42,409 nt of DNA from a virus: positions 1 to 42,409 of the IMG/VR virus record IMGVR_UViG_3300035125_000073; one strand, written 5' to 3'. Made by a program: the position numbers and the translations under genes. Positions within the stretch are counted from its first letter, which is position 1; every line of letters starts with the position of its first letter. Below, in pieces: positions 3,080-42,409 of this stretch. The notes under the pieces are model-generated. The model saw only the letters and a list, made by a program, of their open reading frames with translations, did not search any database and was not told where the DNA came from.

Positions 3080-3811
3080 GTGGCGACGAAGATTGAATGG
3101 GCCGCGGAGAGCTGGAATCCGGTGACCGGCTGCACGCCGATCAGCGAGGGATGTGCCAATTGTTACGCGCGGCGGATGGCTCATCGATTGGCGGGGCGCT
3201 TCGGTTACCCAAGCAAGTCGCCTTTTTCGGTGACCACGCATCCAGAGAGGCTCGATGTCCCGCTGCACTGGCGCAAGCCCCGGCGGATCTTCGTCTGCTC
3301 GATGGGCGATCTATTTCACCCACAGGTCCCCGATTCATTCCGCGCCGCAGTGTTTGAAAGAATGCACGACAACGAACGACACACATTCATGGTGCTCACG
3401 AAACGTGAGATGGAGATGGTATGTTGGATCGAGCGGACCCAGCCGCTGGGATGCGCCGAGAATGTATGGTTGGGCGTGTCAGTGGAAAACGAGAAGCAGG
3501 CTCAGTTGCGCCTCCCTGACCTGCTTAGTATCCCGGCGAGCATTCGGTTCGTGAGTTGCGAGCCACTCCTCGGCCCGATTGATCTGGCGCGCTGGATCTA
3601 CGGAATAGGCTGGCTGATCATTGGCTGTGAGAGCGGTCCGAAGCGCCGGCGCTGCAAGCTCAATTGGGTGCGGGCGTTAGTATCTTGGGCCCGCGCCGCT
3701 CGCGTTCCGGTATTCGTCAAGCAACTGGCGATCGACGGCCGAGTCGAACACGACCCGCAGAAATGGCCCGCCGATCTGCGGCTAAGAGAGTTCCCAACTC
3801 CCAAATCCTAA
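3080..3811 (+). CDS. DUF5131 (phage Gp37/Gp68) family protein
   Basis: GTG start at 3080 with GGGGAGG ten bases upstream; 243 residues. The N terminus has the family signature: KIEWAAESWNPVTGC, then GCANCYA, giving a Cys cluster (C-x6-C-x2-C) at about residues 17-27, which suggests a metal or Fe-S site. Further family blocks are FVCSMGDLFH, VLTKRE, WLGVSVEN, FVSCEPLLG and IIGCESGP. The family is frequent in phages, and its biochemical role is not established; a relation to radical-SAM-like three-Cys proteins has been suggested. No partner gene of that class is recognised nearby. The stop codon lies inside a heptamer array (3794-3821). Confidence 0.9.
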   Translation: MATKIEWAAESWNPVTGCTPISEGCANCYARRMAHRLAGRFGYPSKSPFSVTTHPERLDVPLHWRKPRRIFVCSMGDLFHPQVPDSFRAAVFERMHDNERHTFMVLTKREMEMVCWIERTQPLGCAENVWLGVSVENEKQAQLRLPDLLSIPASIRFVSCEPLLGPIDLARWIYGIGWLIIGCESGPKRRRCKLNWVRALVSWARAARVPVFVKQLAIDGRVEHDPQKWPADLRLREFPTPKS

Positions 3812-5092: not shown

Positions 5093-5413
5093 ATGCCACG
5101 CCAAAACGCCAAGAGGCGAAAGACGATTAACGAAACGGATCTCCTGTGGGACCTGCAATTATATCTCGAAGCAAGAAGGGAAGAACGGGACCCTGTCTTT
5201 TTGAGTAAGCAGATAGATCTCCCATTTGCGCCTTTTCCAGAATTACAGATTAGGATTGATGGCGACGATTTTAAGATCCATTCAGTGCTATGGGACCATG
5301 ATGGCAAGCGATTCCTCGTCTTCCTTGACGAGCCGTTTCGCGGGAGTGCTCTCTGCTTCAGCGCACGAGTAGCATTATTCCGCAAAGAAGGTTGGAAGGA
5401 ACCAACTGAATGA
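5093..5413 (+). CDS. Unknown 106-residue protein in an AT-richer island
   Basis: ATG at 5093 preceded by AGGAAAGGG. The protein has a charged N terminus and a beta-rich C-terminal half (FKIHSVLWDHDGKRFLVFLD). The DNA from about 5040 to 5413 uses AT-rich codons (AAA, GAA, ATT, TTA), unlike the GC-rich neighbours, which suggests recent acquisition from another source. I do not recognise the family. It sits alone between the integrase and csrA, a usual site for accessory genes. Confidence 0.6.
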   Translation: MPRQNAKRRKTINETDLLWDLQLYLEARREERDPVFLSKQIDLPFAPFPELQIRIDGDDFKIHSVLWDHDGKRFLVFLDEPFRGSALCFSARVALFRKEGWKEPTE

Positions 5414-5457
5414 ACTGGCGATCGACTAGACTAGGTATCGTCGTCCGTCGGGTCCAT

Positions 5458-5619
5458 GGATTGGGGTGGTCGCGAGAGTTGGAGCGTGCGGTTTTCAACT
5501 CTCGATCGTCCATCGTCCCGGCGGCGGCGGTTTGGCCTCGACCGGTCGGCGGCAGGAGACGCCGGCCGGCGTTTCTCGTTTTTCTCGGCAGCACGGACGT
5601 ATTGCCCGGAGGCTGTCGG
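5458..5619 (+). promoter_or_regulatory. csrA leader with hairpin and multiple GGA motifs
   Basis: The leader has GGA at 5458, 5481, 5555, 5608 and 5618. The one at 5481-5483 lies at the top of a 9-bp hairpin (5473-5481 with 5496-5504). The one at 5608 is part of the Shine-Dalgarno GGAGG (5608-5612), and the last overlaps the A of the ATG. CsrA binds GGA in loops and represses translation by covering the ribosome-binding site, so autoregulation is predicted. A 14-bp perfect palindrome (5559-5572) followed by T-rich sequence may be an attenuator. Confidence 0.5.
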
Positions 5620-5826
5620 ATGTTGGTGTTGTCGCGCTGTCGCGACCAGGCAATTGTGATTGACACGGATATCGAGGTGCGCGTGTTGGAGATCCGCCGA
5701 GGCTCGGTGCAGTTGGGGATCAAGGCACCCGGCCGGCCGATCGATCGCGAGGAGATCCACCAGGATAAGCTCCGCAACGGTCGGCGCAACGGCCGCCAGC
5801 CAACGGCCCGGCTGAGCATCCCCTGA
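5620..5826 (+). CDS. csrA: CsrA/RsmA-family RNA-binding translational regulator
   Basis: A 68-residue CsrA homologue. The start at 5620 follows GGAGG by seven bases; a longer open frame upstream is not protein-like. CsrA is a small beta-strand-swapped dimer that binds GGA-containing mRNA hairpins and usually blocks translation. Visible conserved features are MLVLSR at the N terminus (Leu4 and Arg6 in strand 1), the central GSVQLGIKAP block and IDREEI near residues 41-46, with the basic residue used in RNA binding. A basic C-terminal tail follows. A phage-borne copy could retune host mRNAs or regulate phage mRNAs whose start sites contain GGA. Confidence 0.93.
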   Translation: MLVLSRCRDQAIVIDTDIEVRVLEIRRGSVQLGIKAPGRPIDREEIHQDKLRNGRRNGRQPTARLSIP

Positions 5827-5843
5827 CGCGAACCACAGGACGC

Positions 5844-6914
5844 ATGAGCGACGGAGCAATGAGTGACGGAGCCTCAACCCCGAACTCCACGCGGTTGGAG
5901 CCTGCGAGGGAGAGCGGGGACTTTCTGCGCGCGATCGACTTGGGTTGTGGGGCCGGCGGATGGGCCGTGGCCGCGCGGGGGCTGCCGATCCGGTTCAGGG
6001 CGGTGATCGATTGGGCAGCCGACTGCCTGGAGACGTGGAAACTGAACCACGCCGCCGATCATCCGGATTGCGAGCTGCTGAAGCTCGATCTGTGCGAGCC
6101 ATCTTCGGTGGAGACGGTCGTCGCGCGGGGCCCCGCGGATTTGATTTTGGGGGGGATACCGTGTGAACCCATAAGCCACCTGCGGACCAGCGGCGGCCCG
6201 AGCGCGTTACCGGGGGACGAAGAGATGGACCGCTGGTATCGACTGTTGGACCACTGCCTCGGGATTACCAGGCGGCTGGCCCCGCGCTGGTGGTCGATCG
6301 AGGACATCGTATCCATCCAGCGTCACATTCACCCGCTGATAGCCGGTTTCCCTGTGCCGATGCGCCGGATTGACGCTAGTGCTTTCGGTCCGCAGAAACG
6401 CATCCGGGCCTTCTTGGGCGAGTTTCCCGATCCGAAGCCGGAGCCCGGGCCGCGCTGCTTGGCCGACTGCCTGCTGCCCGGGCCTCACCTGACGATCGCC
6501 GATCAGGAGCGTTACGAGCGGCGATACATGCGGAATGGTCAATTGAGCATTGGAAATGACCGAGTGCGTATTTGTTCGCCGGACCACCCGTGTCCGACGG
6601 TCGTCGGGGGTTTGTCGCGCGGTTCCAGGCAGCGACGGAGTTGGATGCTGGAATTGCAGAACGGCCAACTCCGGATTCTCGATTGGCGGGAGCTGGCCTT
6701 GGTACAGGGGTTTCCGCCGGACTACGTGTTTGCTGCCGGCCACATGCGCACCGAGAAGATGATCGGCCAGGCGATAGCCATTCAGGTGGGCCGAGCGATC
6801 CTCAAGGCGATTTGCCAACAGAGGAGGCGGCGCCTGAATGGATGTGGGTGCTGGTCGAGCGGCTCCGCGCTGAATTCGCAGATGAGGCCGAGAAGTATCC
6901 ATGCGTCTTTCTGA
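5844..6914 (+). CDS. DNA (cytosine-5) methyltransferase
   Basis: A 356-residue C5-MTase. Motif I is IDLGCGAGG (31-39, SAM binding). Motif IV is GGIPCEPIS with catalytic Cys107. Motif VI is IED (152-154, where ENV is usual). Motif VIII is QKRIRAF (184-190). Motifs IX/X are RELALVQGFP and GQAIAIQVG near the C terminus. It would methylate phage or host DNA, perhaps as protection from host restriction; no partner endonuclease is next to it. The start region is duplicated (MSDGA twice), so 5844 and 5859 are both possible starts, the second having CGGAG upstream. The last 24 codons overlap the next small ORF. Confidence 0.9.
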   Translation: MSDGAMSDGASTPNSTRLEPARESGDFLRAIDLGCGAGGWAVAARGLPIRFRAVIDWAADCLETWKLNHAADHPDCELLKLDLCEPSSVETVVARGPADLILGGIPCEPISHLRTSGGPSALPGDEEMDRWYRLLDHCLGITRRLAPRWWSIEDIVSIQRHIHPLIAGFPVPMRRIDASAFGPQKRIRAFLGEFPDPKPEPGPRCLADCLLPGPHLTIADQERYERRYMRNGQLSIGNDRVRICSPDHPCPTVVGGLSRGSRQRRSWMLELQNGQLRILDWRELALVQGFPPDYVFAAGHMRTEKMIGQAIAIQVGRAILKAICQQRRRRLNGCGCWSSGSALNSQMRPRSIHASF

Positions 6915-7258: not shown

Positions 7259-7507
7259 ATGAATGGGAAAGACGATAATCGGCGAGCCGAACATTTCTTG
7301 ACTGAAGTGCGGAACGAATTCCGCAGGGCTTCGGAGTTGCATAATCCCATACGGACCGCCCACGAGGCGGCTGCGGTGATACGCGAAGAATTTGAAGAAT
7401 TTTGGGAGTTGGTCAAGCAAAAGCATCACAACAAGCGCCGCATGTGCGAGGAGCTCGTGCAAGTGGCGGCGATGTGTACAAGGGCCGTCGTGAATCTGGA
7501 TTTGTAA
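7259..7507 (+). CDS. MazG-like all-alpha NTP-pyrophosphatase-type protein
   Basis: An 82-residue helical protein with a very strong ribosome-binding site (GGAGGAGGAG). The segment IREEFEEFWELV (about residues 40-51) followed by CEELVQVAAMCTR (about 62-74) has the two-helix arrangement of MazG-type NTP pyrophosphohydrolases, with an ExxEE-like Mg-binding box in the first helix. In the second helix the usual ExxD is ELVQ, so one metal ligand appears changed. Phage MazG-like proteins hydrolyse non-canonical nucleotides or modulate alarmones; activity of this one is uncertain. Confidence 0.6.
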   Translation: MNGKDDNRRAEHFLTEVRNEFRRASELHNPIRTAHEAAAVIREEFEEFWELVKQKHHNKRRMCEELVQVAAMCTRAVVNLDL

Positions 7508-7628: not shown

Positions 7629-7701
7629 CGCGGGGTAGAGCAGTTGGAAGCTCGCCGGGCTCATGCCCCGGAGGTCGCCGGTTCAACTCCGGCCCCCGCC
7701 A
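7629..7701 (+). tRNA. Initiator tRNA-fMet (anticodon CAT)
   Basis: A complete 73-base cloverleaf. Acceptor CGCGGGG/CCCCGCC has a C1-C72 mismatch, D stem is GAGC/GCTC with the pair A11-T24, anticodon stem CCGGG/CCCGG encloses loop CTCATGC, T stem GCCGG/CCGGC encloses TTCAACT, and the discriminator is A (7701). The unpaired 1-72 position, the three G-C pairs flanking the anticodon loop and A11-T24 are the diagnostic marks of a bacterial initiator tRNA, so this is neither elongator Met nor Ile2. CCA is not encoded (CTT follows) and would have to be added by the host enzyme. Confidence 0.92.
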
Positions 7702-7707
7702 CTTGGG

Positions 7708-7816: not shown

Positions 7817-8221
7817 ATGTCTCATCCGAAGAAAGCCAGGCTATATTGCCGGCCGGCGGTGGTCGAGCGTGGCAAGCCGCCGCGGCGGCGGGTGGCGCGC
7901 CAGCGGAGAGTGCCGTTGGAGCCGCGGGTCTGCCGGGGCTGCCGATACCAGTTTCACTCGGCGCGACTGTTGGCCGGTCACCTGGAGAGCCGCCGCTATT
8001 GCCTGGAGGCGCATTGCGAGGATCCGGAGGAGCTGATCCTGATGCCGGGCGACGGGCGGCGGCTGGCGGTTCGCTCGACGCTGCACGTAGATCAGGATCG
8101 ACCGAGCGGGTTTGCCGTATTCGGGCTGAGTCCCAGCGGCCAGCGGTGCGCGTTCGCCTGCGATCAGCACAAGCTGCCGATGGTCCGGTGGCTGAGAGGG
8201 ATACTGAGTACTGAGTACTGA
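7817..8221 (+). CDS. Zinc-finger protein, unknown
   Basis: A 134-residue protein with a very basic N terminus (RGKPPRRRVARQRR) and a C2HC-type finger (VCRGCRYQFHSARLLAGHLESRRYC, spread over about residues 38-62), pointing to nucleic-acid binding. The C-terminal half is beta-rich. Its last residues (GILSTEY) and TGA stop are encoded by the following TGAGTAC array (8202-8234), and the start abuts another array, so repeats flank both ends. It precedes the replication-initiator-like gene and may be an early regulator. Confidence 0.65.
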   Translation: MSHPKKARLYCRPAVVERGKPPRRRVARQRRVPLEPRVCRGCRYQFHSARLLAGHLESRRYCLEAHCEDPEELILMPGDGRRLAVRSTLHVDQDRPSGFAVFGLSPSGQRCAFACDQHKLPMVRWLRGILSTEY

Positions 8222-17599: not shown

Positions 17600-17884
17600 A
17601 TGACTACCCGCAAGAAAGCATCCAAGCCCGCACACCCGGCAGTCGGCTCCTGTGCCATCGAGCTCCCCCTGGTCAGGCTCCCGGCCGACTACGACGAGCA
17701 GCGCGACGGCTATCTGCGCCGCCACGTCGAGGTCCGCCTGGACGACCGCCAGGCCCTGGTGATGAAGGCCCTCCTGGAGGGCTGCGACCACGGCAACTGC
17801 CGATTGGCCAAGGGGACCCGGGTGTTGAGCACGGCCGACGTTTTCCGCTACATCCTTGAGCAGATCACCGTAAATGGAAAATGA
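17600..17884 (+). CDS. Unknown small protein after terminase
   Basis: A 94-residue protein. The N terminus is basic and the C-terminal half helical (RLDDRQALVMKALLEG, then TADVFRYILEQI), which could be a ribbon-helix-helix or similar small DNA-binding unit. It overlaps the HNH gene by 11 bases. No known name. Confidence 0.6.
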   Translation: MTTRKKASKPAHPAVGSCAIELPLVRLPADYDEQRDGYLRRHVEVRLDDRQALVMKALLEGCDHGNCRLAKGTRVLSTADVFRYILEQITVNGK

Positions 17885-19165: not shown

Positions 19166-19181
19166 CCGCCAGCGCTGAGAG

Positions 19182-19460
19182 CCTGAGAAGGCTCGCCGAA
19201 TCGCTCACATCGTGACATTCGATTAAGCCCGACGCCTGCCGACTCCAAGAATCCGACCGATCCGACTCCGGATTGGTCGGATTTGCTCGTAATTGGGCCG
19301 GCTCTTCTGCTAGGGTCAAGCGGGTATGGCCACGCTCGACTCGACCAGCACCCTCTCGGAGATCCTGGCGGCCTACGCCGATAACGCCTCCTACGCGGAG
19401 GACGGATCGGCGACCAAGGCCCGGAGCTTCATCACCGCCTGCCGGCTGCTGTTGATCAAT
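19182..19460 (+). repeat. 279-bp direct repeat, copy 1
   Basis: Copy 1 of a nearly identical block repeated at 19488-19766 (offset 306), separated by an AT-richer 27-bp spacer. Each copy contains an 11-bp palindrome TCACATCGTGA, a 15-bp hairpin, and the first 45 codons of the small head gene. Confidence 0.9.
19250..19283 (+). terminator. 15-bp hairpin, copy 1
   Basis: AATCCGACCGATCCG (19250-19264) pairs with CGGATTGGTCGGATT (19269-19283) with one G-T pair and a four-base loop. It follows the gene ending at 19165 and may terminate its transcript. The near-perfect symmetry would also suit an operator. Confidence 0.55.
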
Positions 19461-19532
19461 TTATATTTCCCGGACAGCACCTACGAACCTCAGAAGGCTG
19501 GTCGAATCCCTCACATCGTGACATTCGATTAA
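19326..19532 (+). pseudogene. Truncated duplicate of the small head gene
   Basis: The first 45 codons match those of the intact gene at 19632, including start site and spacing, then the frame runs into the spacer and the second repeat copy and stops after 68 codons. It could produce a truncated protein, but the duplication pattern suggests a remnant. Confidence 0.7.
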
Positions 19533-19766
19533 GCCCGACGCCTGCCGGCTCCAAGAATCCGACCGATCCGACTCCGGATTGGTCGGATTTGCTCGTAATT
19601 GGGCCACCTGCTTTGCTAGGGTCAAGCGGGTATGGCTACGCTCGACTCGACCAGCACCCTCTCGGAGATCCTGGCGGCCTACGCCGATAACGCCTCCTAC
19701 GCGGAGGATGGATCGGCGACCAAGGCCCGGAGCTTCATCACCGCCTGCCGGCTGCTGTTGATCAAT
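19488..19766 (+). repeat. 279-bp direct repeat, copy 2
   Basis: The intact downstream copy that continues into the full-length gene 19632-19940. The two copies differ at only a few positions, mainly at their left ends and just before the start codon. Confidence 0.9.
19556..19589 (+). terminator. 15-bp hairpin, copy 2
   Basis: The same hairpin as at 19250, in the second repeat copy, 42 bases upstream of the ATG at 19632. Confidence 0.55.
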
Positions 19767-42241: not shown

Positions 42242-42409
42242 GTGCCCTGTCAATTTACCACCACTGATGGCCTGGAGTTTTTGTGCCCGAAGTGCAACCG
42301 CAGCTACCGCACCCGGCATGTCTATCGTGCCGAGCAGGTCCACCGCCGCTGCCTGAGTGATCCCCGTCGGCAAATCCCCAATCCCCAATCCCCAATCCCG
42401 AATCCCCAA
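42242..42409 (+). CDS. Join-spanning Cys-rich small protein, N-terminal part
   Basis: GTG start at 42242, four bases after the stop of the 40492-42237 gene, so translation is probably coupled; a run of G just upstream could serve as ribosome-binding site. The first residues are a short acidic stretch and then a CPKC knuckle. The only nearby ATG (42267) is out of frame. The window ends inside the CAATCCC array, and the gene continues at position 1. Confidence 0.65.
   Translation, partial: MPCQFTTTDGLEFLCPKCNRSYRTRHVYRAEQVHRRCLSDPRRQIPNPQSPIPNPQ
42283..42409. repeat. Terminal direct repeat, copy 2 (circular overlap)
   Basis: This is the second copy of the 127-base overlap. It holds the first third of the join-spanning gene and the start of its in-frame CAATCCC array. 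Confidence 0.9.

Follow-up and report, generated by a model that had tools for sequence, protein, structure and literature searches.

An intact initiator-type tRNA-Met(CAT) gene, confirmed by the features of its sequence, lies at positions 7629-7701 of the window, a viral record of 42,409 bases. The anticodon loop of the encoded tRNA is altered at positions 37 and 38, at or beside the site at which an anticodon nuclease reportedly cuts bacterial tRNA-fMet. Our preferred reading, tentative and a little short of evenly balanced, is that this is a working phage initiator tRNA whose loop would have been selected for resistance to anticodon nucleases of the host. Elongation is the step that phage tRNAs are usually said to assist.

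The gene was called by ARAGORN as tRNA-Met(cat) (7629-7702) and matched the Rfam tRNA covariance model RF00005 over its full length (7629-7701; 59.6 bits, E 1.5e-10), in agreement with the initial annotation, which had described a complete initiator tRNA gene in a phage and proposed a covariance check. In the acceptor stem (CGCGGGG/CCCCGC+C), positions 2-7 pair with 66-71 and C1 faces C72. T8 and A9 are followed by a D-stem (GAGC/GCTC) containing A11-U24, and because the D-loop has eight bases, the linear numbers of this tRNA are also the standard ones. The anticodon stem is CCGGG/CCCGG, the variable loop AGGTC and the T-arm GCCGG-TTCAACT-CCGGC. At the 3' end, A73 is followed by the bases CTT, and CCA is not encoded. 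The C1-C72 mismatch, A11-T24 and the three G-C pairs below the anticodon loop, on which the initial annotation had based the initiator assignment, could all be read in the sequence (Table 1).

Table 1. Coordinates of the phage tRNA gene and of its diagnostic positions in the window
Feature	Position	Strand	Basis
Initiator tRNA-Met(CAU) gene, 73 nt, positions 1-73, no encoded CCA	7629..7701	+	ARAGORN; Rfam RF00005; metZ identity
C1, unpaired with C72 (7700), initiator mark	7629..7629	+	sequence; non-standard pair in Rfam alignment
C72, mismatch partner of C1	7700..7700	+	sequence; Rfam alignment
A11, paired with U24 (7652), bacterial initiator mark	7639..7639	+	sequence
G29-G31, paired with C39-C41 (7667-7669), three initiator G-C pairs	7657..7659	+	sequence
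Anticodon loop CTCATGC, positions 32-38	7660..7666	+	sequence; bacterial counterpart CTCATAA
Anticodon CAT	7662..7664	+	ARAGORN
Positions 37-38, GC and not AA; flank the reported VapC cut (linear count)	7665..7666	+	sequence; PMC4105405; metZ

Compared with annotated tRNAs of E. coli K-12, the phage tRNA was identical to the initiator metZ at 63 of 74 aligned positions; the elongator Met genes metT/metU agreed with it at 43 of 74 positions and the Ile2 gene ileX at 42 of 73. The marks of an elongator, a paired 1-72 and a pyrimidine at 11 with a purine at 24, were absent. Given the initiator marks and the higher identity to metZ, the gene therefore encodes neither an elongator tRNA-Met nor a tRNA-Ile2, the two other identities that had been considered for it. 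With bacterial tRNA-fMet (E. coli metZWV/metY type) it shares the CAU anticodon, the mismatch of C1 with 72, A11-U24, the three G-C pairs and A73; unlike bacterial tRNA-fMet, it is phage-borne, has no encoded CCA and has CTCATGC instead of CTCATAA in the anticodon loop. The loop CUCAUAA, replaced here by CUCAUGC, is a usual mark of bacterial initiators and not a defining functional one. This change at 37-38 was absent from the initial annotation. Among 294 genomes of one phylum (Planctomycetota, going by the title of the central record), the nearest match (66/73) was also an initiator, with the loop CTCATAA, and no exact copy of the 73-mer was found in 84,980 prokaryote genomes.

Relative to the near-universal bacterial loop, the phage loop carries the substitutions A37G and A38C. 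We surveyed initiator tRNAs with a pattern in which parts of the D, variable and T arms were fixed and the anticodon arm was left free except for CAT; such patterns fix parts of the tRNA, and variation is measured only in the parts left free. In Pseudomonadota, 135 of 200 genomes matched the pattern, and among the matches listed the loop was CTCATAA in all but one (TTCATAC). In Planctomycetota, 134 of 199 genomes matched, all with CTCATAA save one with TTCATAA. A changed loop was found, then, in 2 of 269 matching genomes from the two phyla sampled (for Pseudomonadota, among the matches listed). As a host-side comparison, positions 37-38 were nearly always AA in the bacterial genomes sampled, from phyla that may not include the host of this phage.

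In uncurated viral contigs, by contrast, 31 of 155 distinct CCA-less initiator tRNAs (about 20%; window excluded, among the matches listed) had a changed loop, and in 21 of these 31 the bases at 37-38 were other than AA (same set of 155, among the matches listed). The set of 155 consists of pattern matches joined with loci from scans that left 37-38 free. CTCATAA was kept in 124 of the 155 distinct initiator-type tRNAs among the matches listed. Fisher tests of viral against bacterial sequences gave p values of about 1e-12 for any loop change and 4e-9 for a change at 37-38, which should be taken as indicative, since the tests set tRNAs against genomes and ignore shared ancestry and pseudo-replication. 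The contrast between viruses and bacteria is conservative, because the viral sample may contain host tRNAs.

Scans that fixed G29-31:C39-41 and C32 detected in viral contigs at least 52 stretches with a base other than A at position 37 and at least 72 with A at 37 and a base other than A at 38. In the genome collection, which is much larger than the viral one, at least 34 stretches with a base other than A at 37 were detected by comparison. At least 87 distinct viral tRNAs had bases other than AA at 37-38, and 71 of these were altered at position 38; the forms observed were AT (45), AC (11), TA (11), TC (8), GC (6), GA (5) and GT (1), numbers that count distinct sequences and are not equal to counts of independent events. 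When 84 of the viral variants were laid out, 82 had a weak or mismatched pair at 1-72 and 2 a strong G-C pair, 65 had A11-U24 and 74 had A73; the T-stem was fully paired in 82 of the 87. Stems and initiator marks were intact in nearly all variants, which therefore appear to have been kept as initiator tRNAs and not to have decayed.

At three viral loci with the GC loop (L171, L174 and L184), the neighbouring genes included those for terminase, portal or protease, and a replication-O-like gene was located near the variant tRNA in viral contig L010. In the bacterial collection, position-38 variants (TC, TT and GC) were largely phage-borne. At L015, L024, L030, L033, L035, L036 and L044, several of which are of the Mu type, the tRNA was surrounded by terminase, portal, head-protease, major-head or tail-sheath genes. 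Besides two initiator genes of the canonical type, Bordetella genomosp. 4 had one CTCATGC copy in its genome, and this variant tRNA together with its flanks was also present in the IMG/VR contig L010.

Mu-like prophages in gut assemblies carried a lone initiator-type tRNA, with CTCATTC or CTCATTT, beside a head-protease gene (L015, L024, L030, L032, L033, L035, L036, L039, L043 and L044; gene content was checked in seven). Those at L015, L030 and L033, and their relatives, resemble the gene in the window in being a single tRNA changed at 37-38 (to TC or TT) and differ from it in their position beside the head protease gene, in belonging to an unrelated phage type and in their loop bases.

Initiator-type tRNAs in phages are already known, for instance from cluster C mycobacteriophages, and loop changes are confined to some of them. 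Among isolates with known hosts, changed loops are found in PaMx74 of P. aeruginosa (TTCATAC) and Asterius of M. smegmatis (CTCATGA); QDWS359, VBv52 and SCTP-2 have TTCATAA, and AP1, NTR1, Pan5, PHB04, Myrna, Bohxovirus and Lak-A2 have CTCATAA. Because most viral initiator-type tRNAs and several isolates keep CTCATAA, the loop change is not required. The gene in the window is similar to those of the Stenotrophomonas phage QDWS359, the Pseudomonas phage PaMx74 and the cluster C mycobacteriophages Myrna and Asterius in being an initiator-type gene of a tailed phage, a group in which some loops are changed. Compared to these, it has both 37 and 38 changed and other stems, and it is the lone tRNA of a 42-kb phage.

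VapC of Shigella and Salmonella reportedly cuts tRNA-fMet between nucleotides 38 and 39 (PMC4105405). Linear bases 38 and 39 of the 77-nt E. coli initiator tRNA (metZ) correspond to A37 and A38 in standard numbering; had standard numbering been used in that report, the cut would lie one base further, and it touches the changed bases either way. According to a review (PMC7180214), the cuts made by all tRNA-targeting VapCs fall in the anticodon arm, either inside the anticodon or immediately 3' to it, and escape of phage tRNAs via changes in the anticodon loop has been proposed for mycobacteriophages (PMC10264068). From the VapC cut site at the changed bases and this published proposal, we judged nuclease escape to be the most likely reading. 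The change at 37-38 would cause host anticodon nucleases that cut canonical tRNA-fMet to spare the phage copy, VapC-type PIN toxins being the best-known candidates. During infection, a host enzyme would destroy the host initiator tRNA and initiation would halt, while the phage copy, its CAU anticodon unchanged, would receive Met, be formylated and enter the P site, and synthesis of phage proteins could still begin. We infer that the phage tRNA is expressed, charged, functional in initiation and nuclease-resistant, and likewise which nuclease it would resist.

In the anticodon-nuclease-resistant phage tRNAs described by van den Berg et al. (2023; PMC10264068), a loop change likewise lies beside a reported cut site; other tRNAs were treated in that study, and for the tRNA in the window resistance is a candidate property. 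Nuclease escape by a phage initiator tRNA is an extension of the published idea on phage tRNAs. PIN-domain genes were present in 3 of 4 genomes holding variant tRNAs and were not found in the Bordetella genome, a distribution that neither supports nor excludes nuclease escape.

More doubtful, and offered as a conjecture, is the general form of this proposal: many unrelated phages may carry a private initiator tRNA, rewritten at 37-38 and spared by host nucleases directed at tRNA-fMet, which would give the phage a monopoly on protein starts after the host pool has been cut. If true, nuclease escape would be extended to the initiation step, in contrast to a published statement (PMC10264068) that, where VapC-LT2 is present or acts, a tRNA-fMet gene is generally avoided by phages; this statement also counts against the preferred reading. 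Toxins that cut tRNA-fMet would then be hinted at as phage defences in hosts not yet looked at for such a role, and initiation itself would be a battlefield between phage and bacterium.

Weaker constraint is a serious alternative, given the variety of the loop changes and the retention of AA in most viral copies. According to this explanation, which we consider possible and on balance doubtful, the tRNA is an ordinary supplement that raises initiation capacity, and 37-38 have drifted under weaker constraint than in the host copy. The existence of isolate phages with the ordinary initiator loop, the abundance of viral copies with CTCATAA and the diversity of the changes, which extend from 37-38 to positions 32 and 33, are all consistent with it, and the change at position 38 could reflect relaxed constraint. 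However, the stems, 1-72, A11-U24 and A73 are intact in nearly all variants, and constraint on the variants is therefore not generally relaxed. Changes at position 38 also recur across unrelated phage types, which argues against drift in an ordinary supplement.

A second alternative concerns the choice of mRNA. Heptads, (ACTGAGT)n, are located 20-50 bases upstream of the starts at 7817, 8238, 19986, 25525, 28930 and 33114, in many cases with a GGAG-like variant close to the ATG, and the related heptads ACTGACA/ACCGAGA precede the starts at 17600 and 31814. In line with the repeat-derived ribosome-binding sites pointed out in the initial annotation, heptad repeats directly precede many gene starts. 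A search of 199 Planctomycetota and 200 Pseudomonadota genomes did not find this heptad in any of them. Since position 37 stacks on the codon-anticodon helix and decoding is tuned by the 32-38 pair, a role in mRNA choice is conceivable: G37 and C38 would alter P-site binding or codon preference in favour of phage mRNAs that have GTG starts and leaders that are weak or derived from repeats. The initial annotation had put forward that the tRNA may favour phage mRNAs after host shutdown. We consider such tuning unlikely. Variant initiators are spread over many unrelated phages, and no link was seen between the tRNA and the heptad-led genes or any mRNA class. The altered 37-38 points to escape from anticodon nucleases at least as much as to a preference for certain mRNAs.

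It is more improbable still that the gene is a non-initiating decoy, a sponge or a decayed gene, in which a C32-G37 pair would leave a four-base loop that hides the anticodon. G37 permits this alternative pair, which might weaken the tRNA; for the naked anticodon arm, the predicted energy slightly favoured the slipped hairpin over the seven-base loop (best fold -8.4 kcal/mol, versus -7.4 kcal/mol for the AA version). Modification and the ribosome may override the slipped fold. The slip is not common to the variants, because the TC variant was predicted to fold with a normal seven-base loop. Furthermore, all stems and initiator marks of the phage tRNA are intact, and the GC loop at 37-38 occurs in seven distinct tRNAs (that of the window and six others) with different backbones; both observations count against this reading.

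tRNA genes commonly serve as attachment sites, and the initial annotation had allowed for a copy identical to a host gene and acting only in that way; an attachment site or integration relic at a host tRNA-fMet gene is nevertheless very improbable here, as the gene is complete and carries differences of its own (its nearest match, in one Planctomycetota genome, being the 66/73 given above), exact bacterial copies were not found, no integrase was recognised in the window ORFs scanned, and comparable lone tRNAs adjoin head genes in Mu-like prophages, the relatives of which use transposition to integrate.

The window has identical direct terminal repeats of 127 bases (1-127 and 42283-42409), which include an (AATCCCC)n array; because of these repeats at both ends, it probably represents a complete phage genome. 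Its ORFs include recognisable terminase, portal, head protease, and major head and tail proteins. The tRNA gene is positioned between an ORF ending at 7507 and an ORF starting at 7817, and no sigma-70-type promoter was found upstream of it, a result that counts against the preferred reading. No relatives were found for the 304-aa ORF adjoining the tRNA, and no DNA relatives of the whole region were found in the phage collection. Relatives of the terminase (L002-L007) showed 38-51% identity; the stretches examined in these, which lie outside the equivalent region, contained no tRNA.

Other features were observed in passing. At loci L340-L426, many CCA-less viral initiator-type tRNAs have another pair in place of the first G-C pair of the three (AGG/CCT, TGG/CCA), and some viral initiator-type tRNAs have C33 for T33 (CCCATAA). 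In the window, the region 5410-5826 encodes a protein of 138 aa that has a CsrA domain at its C-terminus and some 70 extra residues at the N-terminus, and its gene is adjoined by that of a C5 cytosine methyltransferase (5844-6914). A tRNA-Leu called by ARAGORN on the minus strand (6025-6108) lies inside the methyltransferase gene, had no Rfam support and was rejected. A DUF5131 protein (3080-3811; PHROG, function unassigned) also matches the PADLOC candidate defence models PDC-M41B and PDC-M30B. The region 19179-19766 contains a tandem duplication of about 282-306 bases, the copies of which are 95% identical.
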